From assembly GCA_027451445.1 (NCBI GenBank), contig DAIDJG010000540.1:1-64000 (forward strand): 64,000 nucleotides of DNA, read 5' to 3'. A model generated the notes under the pieces. That model worked only from the letters and a program-made list of their open reading frames with translations. It ran no database searches and was not told the DNA's origin. Position numbers and translations under genes: made by a program. This document shows positions 12,535-20,415 of this stretch, in pieces. Source of the stretch: Singulisphaera sp. GTDB lineage: Bacteria; Planctomycetota; Planctomycetia; Isosphaerales; Isosphaeraceae. How positions within the stretch are numbered: the stretch's first letter is position 1; each line of letters begins with the position of its first letter.

Positions 12535-12584
12535 TCGGAAGGGTCGATAATCGCGACTTGATTGCCTGGCAAAGGAGCTCGAAC

Positions 12585-15089
12585 ATGCCCGCCGCACCGG
12601 AGGTTCTCAACCTGCCGATCGCAGGGATGACCTGCGGACATTGCACCGCGTCTGTCCAGCGGGCCCTGGAAGCGATACCAGGGGTCCAATCCGCATCCGT
12701 CAACCTCGAGGGTGGCCAAGCAGAAGTTGCATTCGACCCGGCACGCGTGAACCGCGACCAGCTCAAAAGCGCGGTCGAACGAGCAGGGTATTCTGTACCC
12801 GGCCTTGCTCCGCCAATTCCCACAAACCTCGTGACCCTCGATCTCGTGCGACCGGCTTCTGTCTCCGTTCCATCTCCGGATCCCACGCCCGCCGCTGAAG
12901 AAGAGTGGAACCTCGCCATCAAGGGCATGCATTGCGCGAGTTGCGTAGGAAGAGTCGAAGAAGCCCTCGTTCAAGTGCCGGGCGTGCGCGAAGCGAGGGT
13001 CAACCTCGCAACGGAACGCGCCAGCGTTCTCGTCGACCCCAATCGCGTTTCCGACGAGGATCTACAGTCTGCTATCGCCAGGGCCGGTTATTCGGCAAAT
13101 CGTTCGGAGCTCGAACTCGGCGCCGAAGCCGAAGCGTTGCGCAGGGAGCGTTCCGAACAACTGGCGTACTGGCGAAAGCATCTGCTGGTCGGAGTGGCTT
13201 TAAGCGTCCCGCTGATCGTGCTTGGTTACGGGCCGATGCTCGTGCCGGAGATCTTCGGCCGCGGCGTCGTTGTCGCGTGGACGATGTTCACGCTCGCTGC
13301 CGCGCTTCAGGTCTATCTCGGGGGACCCTACTACCGAGGGGCCTGGTCGCGCCTGAAACAGCGTTCGTCCAACATGGATACCCTGATCGCGCTGGGCACT
13401 TCGACGGCGTTCGGCTTCAGTGCGGCTCATCTCCTGTCCGGACGCGTTCACGAGGCGCACTACTTCATGGACGCGGGGATCATCTTGACGCTCATCACTC
13501 TGGGCAAGTTCCTTGAAGTGCGTTCCAAGGGATCTGCGGGCGCCGCGATCGAGAGGTTGTTGGACCTTGCGCCCAAGACCGCACGCGTCCTGCGTGATGG
13601 CGCAGAGCGAGAAGTTCCGCTCGCGGAGGTCCGCCGAGGGGACCGGGTGCGGGTGCGCCCGGGTGAGACGATCCCCGTCGATGGATTGGTGGTGGAAGGG
13701 GACTCGAGCGTCGATGAGGCGATGTTGACTGGTGAATCGCAACCTGTCGACAAACGTGCCGGCGACCGCGTGACCGGGGCCACGCTCAATGGCGATGGCA
13801 CACTCGTCGTCGTCGCCCAGCGCCTCGGGCGTGAGAGTGCCCTGGAAGGGATCGTGCGGCTTGTTCGCGAGGCCCAGGGGTCGAAGGCCGGCGTGCAGCG
13901 GCTGGCCGATCGGATCGCAAGTTGGTTTGTTCCCGTCGTTCTGGTGGTGGCACTTTTGACGTTAGTTGGCTGGGGACTGATCGGAGGCCGATGGCAAAGC
14001 GGCTTCTTGAATGCGGCTGCGGTATTGATCATCGCATGCCCCTGTGCCCTGGGTCTGGCAACGCCGATGGCCGTCGCTGTCGCGACCGGTCGAGGAGCTC
14101 GCGACGGGCTCCTTGTGCGCGAGGCGTCGGCCTTCGAGCGAATGGACCGGCTCAACGCGGTTGTGCTTGACAAGACTGGCACGATCACGGAAGGGAAACC
14201 GAGCGTGACTGATGTCTTCGTGGTTCCAGGATGGGATCGGGACCAACTCTTGCGGCTCGCTGCGGACGCAGAATCGGGGAGCGAACACCCGTTGGCCGTG
14301 GCACTTGTCCCGTTTTGTCAAGGCGCTGACGTGACAGATTTTCGGGCGATACGAGGCGGCGGCGTGGCGGCGAAGGTCGACGGTACGACGGTGCTCGTAG
14401 GTTCCGAAAGGTTCCTCGCCGACTCTGGAATCGCCCCGCATGATTTGGAGGAGGTCAGTCGACGCTGGGAGTCTGAAGCAAAGACGGTGCTGTGTGTCGC
14501 TGCCGGTGGTCGGACCGTCGGTGCGATCGCACTGGCGGACAGCGTAAAACCGCATGCACGCGACGTCATCGCGCGGCTGCGTGGCCTTCGCGCTGATGTC
14601 TACTTGGTCACGGGGGATAATCCCGCGACCGCTCGAGCGATCGGCGGTATCTTGACCCTCGCCCCGGAGCGAGTGTTTGCCGGTGTATCGCCCGATGGGA
14701 AGGCCGCCAAGATCACGGAACTGCGTGGGGCAGGGGGGCACGTCGCCATGGTGGGCGACGGACTCAACGACGCGCCCGCACTCGCGTCGGCCGACGTCGG
14801 CATCGCGCTCGGGACGGGCACCGACCTGGCCAAGGCGGTCGCGGACGTGGTCATTGCGACGAGCGACCTTCGCGCTGTTCCGAGGGCCCTCGTCCTCGGT
14901 CGGGCGACGCTCCGGGCGATTCGGCAGAATCTGTTCTGGGCGTTCGCTTACAACGCGGTCGGAATCCCGTTGGCCGCGTTCGGGCTTTTTGGAACGTATG
15001 GGCCGCTCATCGCGGCGCTGGCGATGTCGCTGAGCTCGGTCACGGTCGTCTTCCGTTCAAGCCTTTTGGCGGGGCTCCGACTCGACTGA
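12585..15089 (+). CDS. copA: Copper-exporting P1B-type ATPase
   Basis: The 834-residue protein starts at the ATG at 12585, 9 bases after AAGGAG. It has two N-terminal heavy-metal-associated domains with metal motifs GMTCGHC (residues 14-20) and GMHCASC (114-120). Eight membrane segments follow, with CPC at 485-487 in the metal-transport helix, which is the class 1B-1 Cu+ signature. TGES lies at 382-385, the phosphorylation site DKTGT at 529-533, SEHPLA in the nucleotide-binding domain, and GDGLNDAP at the hinge. The likely role is Cu+ efflux across the inner membrane. No CsoR, CueR or CopZ gene is adjacent. Confidence 0.96.
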
Positions 15090-15139: not shown

Positions 15140-15613
15140 TTATGTTTGATCATTTGTGATTTCGGTTGGTGTCTGCGGTGCGGTCGACTCGAACTGTTTC
15201 GTGATTGTGAGGCGTCCGTTCTCGTCGATGCCGATCCAATCGCCGGATTGCAGAGAAGCGAAGTCACCGGGTTCCAGCGCGATGAGGGGGATCGGGAGGC
15301 CGTAAAGTTCGTCGGCCACGATGGAGGCCAGGGCGAAGAAGGTGTCCGGGCCGTTGGTCAGCAAGGCAGCGGGCGCCGTGCCGGCGCGAATGGCTTCGAG
15401 GAGCACGGCGGTCGTCGTTGAGGAACCGCGCGCCGCGGGGAGCGCCAAGATCGTGCCCGCAGCATTTTCACCGGACAACGGGTGGCGGCGATCGATGATC
15501 TCGCCGGACCTGGGGTCGAATCCTCCCCAAAACGAAAGCGGCTCGTTGCTGACGAGCAACGTCCCTTCCGCTCGGCCCGGAATAAGGACTCGACCGCGGA
15601 TTATGCGTTCCAT
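15140..15613 (-). CDS. Aconitase X small subunit (swivel domain, DUF126)
   Basis: The 157-residue protein, starting MERIIRGRVLIPGRAEG, is a stand-alone aconitase swivel domain. It shows the AcnX small-subunit core: SFWGGFDPRSGEIIDRRHPLSGENAAGTIL followed by the RGSSTTTAVLLEAI segment. The latter contains the serine expected to enter the active site formed with the large subunit. Its start overlaps the end of the large-subunit gene by 13 bases, implying translational coupling. Bacterial AcnX enzymes include cis-3-hydroxy-L-proline dehydratase, and archaeal ones include phosphomevalonate dehydratase. The substrate here is not known. Confidence 0.9.
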   Translation of the reverse strand: MERIIRGRVLIPGRAEGTLLVSNEPLSFWGGFDPRSGEIIDRRHPLSGENAAGTILALPAARGSSTTTAVLLEAIRAGTAPAALLTNGPDTFFALASIVADELYGLPIPLIALEPGDFASLQSGDWIGIDENGRLTITKQFESTAPQTPTEITNDQT

Positions 15614-16866
15614 AGCGAATCGTCCCGCACGATGCGTCCCTCGACAGCCGATCGAACACAATCCTCGAGGCTACCAAAGGCGACCCGAGCGTTCAGCATA
15701 CCGGGCGCGTAGTAGGCATACTTCGCCGAGTTGCTCATCAGGTGCTCGATCCCCGCGGGAAGCATGGGCGACGCGAGAATGCAGGTATCGACCGTCACGC
15801 GCCCGCCAAATGCCTCCAGGGTTGCAAGGAAACCTGCCGATCGGGCCAGTTCCGTCATGATCCGGCTCGACGTGACGAGGAACTGCACGTTCGGATGGAC
15901 TCGTTGACCGGCGAGCAACGGGGCCAGGCGCCGGAACTCCGCGAGCGAGAAATGCGGGCTTCCCAACACGACGAGGTCGAGGGCTTCGCCATCGGCGGTG
16001 CTCAATTCCCGACGGGCCGCCCTCAAGTCGTCTGGTCCAATCACCCGCTTTTCGGTCGGCGCTCTTCCCTGAAGTGCGTGCTCGGTCGTGGACGCTTCGG
16101 GCGTGACACCGACCAGGTGAAAGAGGGCCACAGCCCCCGACGACGCGGCGGCAGCTCCCAGGGCCTTCAACTGGTCCTCGTTTGGCCGAACGATCAACCC
16201 GTCGATCACTGGGACGCGATCGCCAGCGATTTTTCCCACGAGATGCCCGAGAACGGGATAGAAGCTGTCGTCCTGTTGTAGGGATGCAGGAACGTCCCTG
16301 AGCCGTAGTAAGACTTCACCCGCGCGATTGTCTGTCAGGTGCAAACCAAAAGCCGGCACGCGTCCGGTCAAGGCGCAGCAGATGTCGAGGAGATCCGGAT
16401 AGCGTTCCGTGCGAGCACCGAGCACGGAATTGGCGAAGACAATCGCGTTCGACTCACCCCAGGCGATTTGCTGCCCGAATTGCGGGCGCACGTCCAACTG
16501 GTAGGGCGCACAAGTCCAGGTGGGAACACACCCCATCGCTCGATACGCCGCCATCTGCCGCGCAGCCTTCTCCGCCCAGTCGGTGGGGACAGCCCACTCC
16601 TGCCAATGATGCTCGTCAAGACCGCTCACGTTGAGCGTTGTCGGGACCACGACGCGGGCATCGAGTGATGCCAGACGCTCGGCGAATTCCAGGCCGGCCT
16701 CGCCAATGTAAATCGTGCTGTCGATGTGGGCACCGGTGATGTCCATCAACTCCGTTGCGCCAAAGACCTCGGCCATTCTCGTCACGATCGAAAGCGCAAG
16801 GCGGGCGGCCGGCCCTTTCTCGCCTGCGCGAATCGACTCATCTGAAGCCGACAGTGACAACGGCAT
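15601..16866 (-). CDS. Aconitase X large (catalytic) subunit, DUF521
   Basis: The 421-residue protein begins MPLSLSASDESIRAGEKGPAA, a variant of the standard AcnX opening. It continues with MDITGAHIDSTIYIGEAGLEF, where ITxxHID is the family signature. Cysteines suited to Fe-S or metal binding occur in MGCVPTWTCAPYQ, LDICCALTG and VDTCILASPM. LLDxCxALTGRVP and SSAKYAYYAPG-like stretches are also typical. The family catalyses hydro-lyase reactions on small hydroxy acids. It lies 177 bases downstream of a LarA-like gene and overlaps the swivel subunit, so the three are probably one operon. Confidence 0.92.
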   Translation of the reverse strand: MPLSLSASDESIRAGEKGPAARLALSIVTRMAEVFGATELMDITGAHIDSTIYIGEAGLEFAERLASLDARVVVPTTLNVSGLDEHHWQEWAVPTDWAEKAARQMAAYRAMGCVPTWTCAPYQLDVRPQFGQQIAWGESNAIVFANSVLGARTERYPDLLDICCALTGRVPAFGLHLTDNRAGEVLLRLRDVPASLQQDDSFYPVLGHLVGKIAGDRVPVIDGLIVRPNEDQLKALGAAAASSGAVALFHLVGVTPEASTTEHALQGRAPTEKRVIGPDDLRAARRELSTADGEALDLVVLGSPHFSLAEFRRLAPLLAGQRVHPNVQFLVTSSRIMTELARSAGFLATLEAFGGRVTVDTCILASPMLPAGIEHLMSNSAKYAYYAPGMLNARVAFGSLEDCVRSAVEGRIVRDDSLWNA

Positions 16867-17043
16867 GTCATTTCCCGATGCGAGACCAGTTTCCGCAGTG
16901 CACGTTTCACTGTAAGGCGCCGACTGTCATCTCGCCAGTCGCCGGACTCGTCGAGGTTCGAACTTTGCAGGCTGTGTATCTGCAAGCTCGCGACGAGACC
17001 ATCGGGGCAGTACGCACGCGGCCAGGGATTCGCTGTAAGGCTT

Positions 17044-18354
17044 TCATTGGTCGTGCCGTGACGCACGGCGTCTGGCACGGGTACTTTCCGGGAAAAGCGT
17101 CTCCTGATCGAGGTTCCCGTCCGCATCGAAGGGGATCGGCTCGAATTCGGTCTCGAGATGGAGATGGGTTCGGCCGTCGAGCTCGTCGCGAAGCGGTGCC
17201 GTGATCCAAACGTCGGTGAGCTCCAGCGTGTTGGGGATAATGACCATACGGGCTTCCGAACGCTCGATGCGCCAGCACGTGTCGAGACACGTGGCGATCA
17301 CGTCGCGATCGGAAGGGAGAGAAAGCGGGATCCGCGCTCGTGTGAGGAAGTTGCTGGTAAGGCTGTTCACGCGCATCGGAGTCGGATCCAGCGACCGCAC
17401 CAGTCGATCGGTCGTAAGGTCCGCGAGCCCAATTCCCAGCGCGTTACCCCGGGTCTCCACGGAGAGGTCGAGGACCGCGAGACGCGTGACGACCGGTCGT
17501 GGAAGGTCGGGCATCGTCTCGATCCGCTGGCGGCCGATCACATTCGGGTCGAGCCCAGTGCCGCTGTAGTTCTTGCCAAGTTCGCCAATGACCAAAACGT
17601 CGATCTGGTCAAAAGGCAAATGAGCCATCAGCCCGCGCGCTTCGTCCAATAGGCGGGGTTCAACCTCCAGCAGGTCTTCCGGCTCGACCGCAACGACCCG
17701 CGCCGTGTGTTCTCGCGCATTCTCAAGCAGTGCAATTCCGAGGGCGACCGGGGTCTTTCCCATGAGAAACGTGCCAACTTCCGGAAGTAGCTTTTTCAAC
17801 CCCGGCAATCCGAGCTTGTGGACCTGTGCGGCCCCCTGTCTCTTGCCAAGACCGATCGTGAGCATCTTCAAAAGCCCGCTCTCGTACCGTCCGGTGAACG
17901 ATGTGTGGGGCTTGATTCGATTGAGAAGGACAATCCCGTCCGACTCAAAAGCCGCACGATCAAAGTGGATCGGAAGACCGAAGGAATTCGATCCTAGAAC
18001 CACCGTTTCCATGGAGTCACGGATCGGGCAGCCCATCGCGGCTTCCGTCACGCCGAACTCGGCGAGAAGAGCGCGTTGACCCTCGGGTGTACCACCGCCG
18101 TGGCTTCCCATCGCCGCAATGATGAATGGGTTGAAGCCCAGGTCGCGGAGTGTGTCGACCGCAGCCCGGGCAATGCGATCGATCCCGCTGATACCCCGAC
18201 TGCCGACGGTGAGCGCGACCGAGCCGCCCGCGGGTACGCGGTCGCGGATTCGACTCGCGCGCAGCGCGCCGGCGACGGCCGCCGGGACGTCCGCAACCTC
18301 AGGCTGGTGAAACGACTGTCGAACGCGGGCGATCGGCGGAAGAGTCCGGCTCAT
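17044..18354 (-). CDS. LarA-like (DUF2088, nickel-dependent racemase family) protein
   Basis: The 436-residue protein shows the LarA N-terminal domain pattern: AAMGSHGGGTPEGQ with His85, then NRIKPHTSFTGRYESGLLKML with His150 and Lys163, then QVHK with His179. In Lactobacillus LarA, as I recall it, His108, His174, Lys184 and His200 bind the nickel-pincer nucleotide. The spacings (65, 13, 16 here against 66, 10, 16) agree well, so a racemase or epimerase of a 2-hydroxy acid is plausible. The C-terminal half is more diverged. No larB/C/E cofactor genes are in the window. It is the first gene of the probable aconitase X operon. Confidence 0.7.
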   Translation of the reverse strand: MSRTLPPIARVRQSFHQPEVADVPAAVAGALRASRIRDRVPAGGSVALTVGSRGISGIDRIARAAVDTLRDLGFNPFIIAAMGSHGGGTPEGQRALLAEFGVTEAAMGCPIRDSMETVVLGSNSFGLPIHFDRAAFESDGIVLLNRIKPHTSFTGRYESGLLKMLTIGLGKRQGAAQVHKLGLPGLKKLLPEVGTFLMGKTPVALGIALLENAREHTARVVAVEPEDLLEVEPRLLDEARGLMAHLPFDQIDVLVIGELGKNYSGTGLDPNVIGRQRIETMPDLPRPVVTRLAVLDLSVETRGNALGIGLADLTTDRLVRSLDPTPMRVNSLTSNFLTRARIPLSLPSDRDVIATCLDTCWRIERSEARMVIIPNTLELTDVWITAPLRDELDGRTHLHLETEFEPIPFDADGNLDQETLFPESTRARRRASRHDQ

Positions 18355-18492: not shown

Positions 18493-19302
18493 TTAGGCGA
18501 TCGACGCGCGGTGCTTCCGCACGCGGCGGACGAGCGCCAGGCCGCCCGCCATCCCGGCCCAGGCCAGGATCGTTGCGGGCTCGGGGACAGGAATCGGCTG
18601 AATCGTACCCGCGGTCGGAACATAGACCGTGGGTAGGTTCGTCTGGGGGTCAGGGCTCTGGACGTTCACGAAGTCCTGCGTGGGAGCCTGATTGCTGATG
18701 ACGACGAACGTCGCGCTATTGGCGCCGGCGCTCAGCGTTGGAGCTCCGGACGCGGCGTTCTCGAATTGCGCGCGGAGAACACCGCTATTGGTCTGAGCCT
18801 GCCAGGAAAGCTCCTGGGGAACTTGGACCGCCCCCCCAGGGCCTGTCATTGTCGGGAGGCTCAAGCTGCCAACGGTCCCGCCCGTGACGACGTACGAGTA
18901 CGAATTGGTCCCGCTGTTCGTCAGATCGGTGCCAACGGGGGTCGCGTTGAAGTGGAACGAGATGCTGTCAATGTTCGCCGGGGCACCGGTAGACGTCACG
19001 CTATTCGGATTGACGCCCACCTGATACGCATAGGCATAGAGCCCGGCGTCCGCACCGGTGCCCTGGAACACTTGCGACGCGACGACACCCGACGTGATAT
19101 TGGAACCGGCGGTGGCACCCGAGAACGAAACGGCGGACGTCATCGCCGGGGCGTTCGCAATCGGCTGAAACATGCTGTTGAATTGCGACACCGACAAGTT
19201 GGTCGGGTCCAGCGATTGAACAGGAGCTGCCTCGGCGGTGGGTGCGGCCAAGCCCAGAGCGAGGCCGGTCGCAATAGCGGAAAGGCGCATGTATTTCTTC
19301 AT
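18493..19302 (-). CDS. PEP-CTERM sorting-domain protein (paralogue A)
   Basis: The 269-residue protein has a signal peptide (MKKYMRLSAIATGLALGLAA, cleaved near AEA) and ends in a textbook PEP-CTERM tail: VPEPATILAWAGMAGGLAL, one membrane helix, then RRVRKHR. Exosortase should cleave the tail after export. The body is beta-rich and low in charge, with shared blocks such as YAYAYQVGVN, GTDLTNSG, NSATFVVISN and QDFVNVQSPDP also found in the next gene. The two are clearly tandem duplicates. Function unknown; such proteins usually reach the cell surface or extracellular matrix. No exosortase gene is in the window. Confidence 0.92.
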   Translation of the reverse strand: MKKYMRLSAIATGLALGLAAPTAEAAPVQSLDPTNLSVSQFNSMFQPIANAPAMTSAVSFSGATAGSNITSGVVASQVFQGTGADAGLYAYAYQVGVNPNSVTSTGAPANIDSISFHFNATPVGTDLTNSGTNSYSYVVTGGTVGSLSLPTMTGPGGAVQVPQELSWQAQTNSGVLRAQFENAASGAPTLSAGANSATFVVISNQAPTQDFVNVQSPDPQTNLPTVYVPTAGTIQPIPVPEPATILAWAGMAGGLALVRRVRKHRASIA

Positions 19303-19309
19303 TTTCCTC

Positions 19310-19327
19310 GATCTTCCAGGGTTGATC
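19310..19327 (-). repeat. Shared leader element, copy A (GATCAACCCTGGAAGATC)
   Basis: This 18-base sequence lies seven bases upstream of the start codon of PEP-CTERM gene A and recurs exactly at 20422-20439 before gene B. It is bounded by GATC on both sides and includes GGAAGA, the probable Shine-Dalgarno. A looser match (CGAGTTAYGGA..CGACTCG) continues further upstream in both copies, so the whole 5' region was duplicated or conserved. Confidence 0.75.
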
Positions 19328-19617
19328 CGGGTTTGGGAGACCCGCCCAAGGGCCTCACCGTAGACTCGAGTCGTCCATAACTCGTGAGTAAGTCAGGAGT
19401 TAGACTCCAGAGCGGCCACACGGGCCATGTTGCGTTGGGCATTCGAAGCCGACGGGATGATGCCGCGGGGGATCTCGGCTCTCGATGCTCCGCCCCGCGC
19501 CGCGACATGTTCTGTCGCGAGTTCGGGACGGACCGCCGCTGGCGAGACGACGGTCGAGTCAGAATGCAAGCCAGCCGCGAGGACCGAGCCTGCGCAAGGT
19601 TCGTAACGGTTAACGCC
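19328..19617. other. Spacer between tandem PEP-CTERM genes
   Basis: This region holds the upstream sequence of PEP-CTERM gene A. A GGAGTTAGACTCC inverted repeat sits near 19396-19408, and a motif related to the upstream region of gene B (CGAGTTATGGACGACTCG on the minus strand) lies near 19366-19383. No gene and no sigma-54 consensus was seen. Confidence 0.4.
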
Positions 19618-20415
19618 TCAGCTCTTGGCGGAACGCGACTTCTGGTTGCGCCGGAGCAGCGCGGCACTGGCGATCCCAGCCCATGCGAGTAGCGTCGCCG
19701 GTTCGGGAACGGGTGGGGGTACAGGTCCCACGGTGCCACCCGTCGGTGCGTAGGCCGAGGTCAGCGAGCTCGGATCGATAGGGTTCGGGCTCTGGACGTT
19801 CACAAACTGCTGGGCGAAGGGTGTATTCGTAATGATCACGAACGTGGCGCTGTTGCCGCCCGCTTGCAGGGCGGGGACCCCCGTGGCCGAGTTCACGAAC
19901 GAGGCGAGGATGGCACCTCCGGACGTGGTCGGCTCCCAGTTCAGAGTGGCCGGCGACAGAATCGCCTGGCCCGGGGCTGCCTTCGGCGTGCTCAAGCTGC
20001 CGATAGGGCCGTCCGAGATCGAGTACGCGTAGGATTGATGGCCTAGGTTCGTCAAATCCGTGCCCTGCGGAGTGGCACCGAACTTCCACGAAGCGCTCTG
20101 CACGTTGACCGGCGAGCCGGACGAGTCGGTCGTGTTGTTCACGTCGACCTGATACGCGTATGCGTAGTAGCCTTGTGCGGCGCCCGTTCCGGCGAATACC
20201 TGGGATTCCAAGACGCCGGAGGCGTTCGGCGCGAGCCCTAAGTAAGTAAACGGAGACGACATCTCCGGCGCCTGGGCAATGGGCTGGAAGAGGCTGTCAA
20301 AGGTGGACGCCGACATGTTCGGTGTAGCAAGTGTCTGAATCGCAACGGCGTGCGCTGGCGTAGCTGCCCCGATGAGCGTCAAGCTGATTCCCAGCGCGAG
20401 GGCAAACTTCTTCAT
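19618..20415 (-). CDS. PEP-CTERM sorting-domain protein (paralogue B)
   Basis: The 265-residue protein has a signal peptide (MKKFALALGISLTLIGAA, cleaved near AHA). Its C-terminus reads VPEPATLLAWAGIASAALL, then RRNQKSRSAKS, i.e. a PEP-CTERM motif, helix and basic end. It shares with paralogue A the order of blocks: FDSLFQPIAQAPEM (FNSMFQPIANAPAM in A), SQVFAGTGAAQGYYAYAYQV, GTDLTNLGHQSYAYSI, ATFVIITN and FVNVQSPNP. It should be exported and processed by an exosortase encoded elsewhere. Function unknown. Confidence 0.92.
   Translation of the reverse strand: MKKFALALGISLTLIGAATPAHAVAIQTLATPNMSASTFDSLFQPIAQAPEMSSPFTYLGLAPNASGVLESQVFAGTGAAQGYYAYAYQVDVNNTTDSSGSPVNVQSASWKFGATPQGTDLTNLGHQSYAYSISDGPIGSLSTPKAAPGQAILSPATLNWEPTTSGGAILASFVNSATGVPALQAGGNSATFVIITNTPFAQQFVNVQSPNPIDPSSLTSAYAPTGGTVGPVPPPVPEPATLLAWAGIASAALLRRNQKSRSAKS

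Follow-up and report, generated by a model that had tools for sequence, protein, structure and literature searches.

Probable accidental neighbours: a group-22 LarA homologue and an AcnX pair in Singulisphaera sp.

The 64,000-nucleotide stretch of the Singulisphaera sp. genome analysed here (the window) carries three consecutive minus-strand open reading frames in the arrangement described by the original prediction, in which a LarA-like gene precedes two aconitase X (AcnX) subunit genes. The LarA homologue (436 aa; 17044–18354) includes a Lar_N domain (Pfam, 31.9 bits; cut-off 23.3) and scores 496.4 bits against NF052515, "nickel pincer isomerase, group 22", for which the curated cut-off is 400. 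A gap of 177 bp (16867–17043) separates it from the gene for the large, catalytic subunit of AcnX (421 aa; 15601–16866, minus strand; AcnX Pfam match of 479 bits), which is followed by that for the small, or swivel, subunit (15140–15661, minus strand; AcnX_swivel match of 82.6 bits). The small-subunit frame begins with TTG, and alignment of small subunits indicates that the ATG at 15613 is the likely true start, with which the two AcnX genes share 13 bp. Beyond them lies a convergent gene for a copper-type P-type ATPase, recognised from its sequence features (12558–15089, plus strand), while two tandem PEP-CTERM-type exported proteins, identified by sequence inspection, are encoded upstream of LarA (18493–20415, minus strand). 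Both correspond to the ancestral flanks of the LarA locus in relatives. The two exported proteins (18493–19302 and 19618–20415) share about 49–50% identity with each other and are found near LarA in relatives too. Promoter and terminator scans at the locus returned signals no more often than in shuffled sequence.

Group 22 is a catalogued group of LarA homologues (Desguin et al. 2020, PMC7583248; NCBIfam NF052515), and no substrate for it was found in the literature searched. Across 24 group-22 proteins, bacterial and haloarchaeal, the residues R53, H85, H150, K163 and H179 do not vary. In a profile-profile alignment against three LarA homologues from the same genome, which at an E-value of 1e-4 and 58% probability is supportive rather than strong, these five pair one to one with Arg75, His108, His174, Lys184 and His200. 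The spacing of His85, His150, Lys163 and His179 is 65/13/16; that of the canonical LarA in the same genome (invariant H126, H192, K202 and H218) is 66/10/16, as given in the original prediction. LarA binds its cofactor through the lysine, and the last histidine, His200, is the nickel ligand provided by the protein (PMC12611868), while His108 and His174 are catalytic (PMC7583248). The four residues named in the original prediction are confirmed in type and spacing, but they are not all nickel ligands. The profile alignment ends before Lys298 of canonical LarA, for which the invariant K261 is a candidate equivalent. Matches of the group-22 profile in the PDB were limited to TAL-effector repeats and were rejected as artefacts of a short repeat-like stretch. 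An AlphaFold2 model, built from an alignment of only two sequences (window and L043), reached a pLDDT of 38.8 and was not used. A scan of viral contigs for further relatives gave one partial match. On the basis of these residues and family assignments, the LarA homologue is predicted to be a nickel-pincer-dependent 2-hydroxy-acid racemase or epimerase.

The accessory genes larB (C361), larC (C13) and larE (C408), whose presence elsewhere in the genome had been proposed as a check, are all present, at three separate places. Five more Lar_N proteins exceed the Pfam cut-off in this genome (C163, locus L005; C93; C534; C389; C113), one of which is a second group-22 paralogue.

The AcnX pair was compared with the enzymes described in PMC5144071 (2016) and PMC8184944 (2021). 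The large subunit aligns with 7cnq/7cnp with an E value of 6e-94; AtAcnX positions correspond to the chain numbering minus 10, as checked at Cys273, Glu292, Cys508 and Cys510. Retained are Asp203, Ile206, Asn233, Cys273, Glu292, Ser293, Asn294, Ser449 (S303 in the window protein), Lys530 and Tyr534, together with a single cysteine of the 508/510 pair, and the candidate Fe-S cysteines are C119 and C362. Two cysteines have been reported for Type-IIa AcnX. In the small subunit Trp35, Ser70 and Thr72 are conserved and a Ser stands at the position of Cys71, a residue whose replacement by alanine inactivates AtAcnX; the same Ser is found in all sampled members of the clade to which the window AcnX belongs. 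The substrate-contact residues of AtAcnX bind cis-3-hydroxy-L-proline in the crystal structure (PMC8184944), and the active-site residues of the window pair point to this compound as the predicted substrate. The equivalog for the single-chain Type-I LhpI (NF051439; cut-off 700) scores 465.3 and 128.2 in the two chains, as would be anticipated when an enzyme is split. In the window AcnX has no hydroxyproline gene next to it, and a search of the genome for proline racemase gave no match over the cut-off.

The tree places the window AcnX among Type I and split relatives and separates it from TkAcnX (100/100); its clade is largely Chloroflexota, plus some Acidobacteriota and Bacteroidota. More distant plasmid relatives are housed in hydroxyproline clusters. 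A gene of the proline-racemase family (Pro_racemase) follows AcnX at only 3 of 34 AcnX loci, all three from Chloroflexi, and its best model is trans-3-hydroxy-L-proline dehydratase, with a score below the cut-off of that model. The flanks of the Chloroflexi AcnX genes (L047, L048 and others) also contain a YbaK/EbsC-type tRNA-editing protein (10 loci), superoxide dismutase (11) and ferredoxin (9). Among 33 other loci with an AcnX 61–74% identical to that of the window, none has a group-22 LarA beside it in the 8-kb flanks, some of which are shortened by contig ends, and in 20 of the 33 genomes Lar_N gave no match. On plasmid NZ_CP139708.1 of Sulfitobacter sp. OXR-159, AcnX and a group-22 LarA are encoded about 69 kb apart, the latter with an altronate dehydratase.

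Group-22 LarA is present in all 45 Isosphaeraceae genomes searched, in the form of two paralogues, distinct in the tree, of which the window protein is paralogue A, placed alongside proteins from many genomes without AcnX. A strong AcnX match was obtained in only two of the 45, the window genome (G000) and its sister G400, both of one genus; since L043 matches the G400 contig exactly, these two loci are the sole examples. In five relatives (L118, L120, L122, L126 and L128) LarA is followed by a HAD gene; four of them have a CPBP gene, and further downstream the Cu-ATPase was seen in L126 and L128. AcnX is absent from all five loci. The composite gene order in relatives is DedA/PEP-CTERM/LarA/HAD/CPBP/Cu-ATPase. 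The order in G400 is LarA, CPBP, AcnX large, AcnX small and Cu-ATPase, and that in the window is LarA, AcnX large, AcnX small and Cu-ATPase. The interval that is a 177-bp gap in the window is occupied in G400 by the CPBP/Rce1-like gene, and it is because this gene is absent from the window that LarA touches AcnX there; the gap has no significant similarity to the G400 locus, and no CPBP remnant was found in it. Neither AcnX genome has, at this locus, the HAD gene that adjoins LarA in relatives. Across 392 Planctomycetota genomes, AcnX exceeds the cut-off in 15 and group-22 LarA occurs in 68, with both in 2 against 2.6 expected by chance, so that co-occurrence is not above chance; the window genome is the only one of the 392 in which group-22 LarA and AcnX lie together. 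The original prediction joined the two enzymes in a racemase-dehydratase pathway and named a neighbourhood not conserved in relatives as evidence against it. This is what was observed: AcnX occurs in two of the 45 genomes that all have LarA, it is inserted beside CPBP rather than LarA in G400, and none of the 33 other AcnX loci examined adjoins a group-22 LarA. The pathway is therefore unsupported.

A different association emerged from 13 plasmid loci with an annotated group-22 LarA, which were read for gene context. In the stretch read, a sugar-acid dehydratase (UxaA/altronate, IlvD/Edd/AraD or mannonate dehydratase) is present at 8 of the 13, although several roseobacter loci are closely related and the independent cases are thus fewer than 8; two further loci carry UxaC, or KDG kinase with KDPG aldolase. 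AcnX is near group-22 LarA at none of the 13. At L039, L040, L187, L188, L191 and L037 the group-22 gene adjoins UxaA/altronate or IlvD/AraD dehydratases, and the same six loci contain DapA-family aldolases, tripartite transporters and often larB/larC. The occurrence of sugar-acid dehydratases, kinases and aldolases by group-22 LarA in unrelated bacteria and haloarchaea suggests that group 22 is a sugar-acid C2-epimerase, and the UxaA/IlvD-type dehydratases on plasmids likely form a true epimerase-dehydratase pairing with it. In other Planctomycetota the contexts are varied, with no single conserved neighbour of group-22 LarA; an RraA-like protein follows the gene in L168. No literature on group 22 with sugar-acid dehydratases was found, and Table S1 of PMC7583248, which lists per-group contexts, may already include the association.

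We therefore regard the LarA homologue and the AcnX pair as two independent enzymes of known kinds made neighbours by gene insertion and loss, with a probability of about 0.78. The LarA homologue would be an Isosphaeraceae gene kept vertically. Lys163 and His179 probably hold its nickel-pincer nucleotide. The probable reaction is inversion at C2 of a 2-hydroxy acid, with a sugar acid the most likely substrate, and it would proceed by proton-coupled hydride transfer involving His85 and His150. An ancestor of the genus probably gained the AcnX pair from a Chloroflexota-related lineage; we infer both this donor and the direction of the gene changes. The simplest reading is a single insertion between the CPBP-protease and Cu-ATPase genes in that ancestor, after which HAD would have been lost from the locus and CPBP from the window locus. 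AcnX would probably dehydrate cis-3-hydroxy-L-proline to pyrroline-2-carboxylate, with a Ser as the base and the Fe-S centre as the Lewis acid. Against an accidental pairing, AcnX lies close to LarA and on the same strand in both AcnX genomes, and the shared absence of HAD at the locus would allow a functional replacement. The substrate assignment has to contend with the Ser in place of Cys71, the lack of an adjacent hydroxyproline gene and the missing proline racemase match.

In an alternative proposal, the Isosphaeraceae/Chloroflexota AcnX clade (split, with two cysteines and Ser in place of Cys71) would have a different cyclic or amino hydroxy acid as its dehydration substrate, LarA being unrelated. 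The Cys71 change throughout the sampled clade and the rarity of proline-racemase-family neighbours favour it, but the substrate-contact residues are retained, and we consider it unlikely. The two-step pathway fares worse and is very unlikely: the LarA homologue would epimerise C2 of a 2,3-dihydroxy acid and AcnX would dehydrate one epimer to a 2-keto-3-deoxy acid, removing the proton from C2 and the hydroxyl from C3, in parallel with the known AcnX reaction but with a hydroxyl replacing the ring nitrogen. The shared strand and order, the proximity of the genes in both AcnX-bearing genomes and the frequent placement of group-22 LarA beside other sugar-acid dehydratases agree with such a scheme. 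However, AcnX retains the equivalents of Asp203 and Thr72, which hold the proline nitrogen, and of Trp35 and Ile206, which pack the ring; the cis-3-hydroxy-L-proline that its residues indicate is not a 2-hydroxy acid; and the insertion beside CPBP, the 177-bp gap and the unconserved neighbourhood all argue against it. That a horizontally gained AcnX was recruited in this one genus to dehydrate an epimer supplied by group-22 LarA is likewise very improbable; if true, it would add 2,3-dihydroxy acids as a new class of AcnX substrate and a nickel-pincer/AcnX route to 2-keto-3-deoxy acids.

With accidental neighbours as the preferred reading, a tempting but probably false pathway is removed, the locus probably being an operon look-alike produced by gene insertion and loss. 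Both enzymes are of known kinds, and they appear to be paired by accident. What makes the locus interesting is this correction, along with the pointer to sugar acids for group 22, rather than any new pathway. The better target for the epimerase-then-dehydratase idea is group-22 LarA beside sugar-acid dehydratases rather than AcnX.

Compared with canonical LarA, the group-22 homologue has the same anchoring Lys, nickel-ligand His, both catalytic His residues and phosphate-binding Arg, but the Lys comes 13 rather than 10 positions after the preceding His, and in the profile alignment the equivalent of Asp72 falls within a two-residue deletion. With the Type-IIa cis-3-hydroxy-L-proline dehydratases the AcnX pair shares separate subunits, two candidate Fe-S cysteines and conserved substrate-contact residues. 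From AtAcnX it differs in the Ser for Cys71, in an identity of about 40% by alignment and in having no surrounding hydroxyproline cluster. Split subunits are common to the window pair and TkAcnX, an archaeal Type-IIb mevalonate-5-phosphate dehydratase, whereas TkAcnX has Ala/Ser at 203/206 and, in place of Ser449, a third Cys of the cluster; the window enzyme has Asp, Ile and Ser at these positions. The plasmids of roseobacters, Sporomusa and Rubrobacter resemble the original prediction in placing a group-22 epimerase beside a hydroxy-acid dehydratase, but the dehydratase there is of a family unrelated to AcnX and is accompanied by sugar-acid transporters and aldolases.
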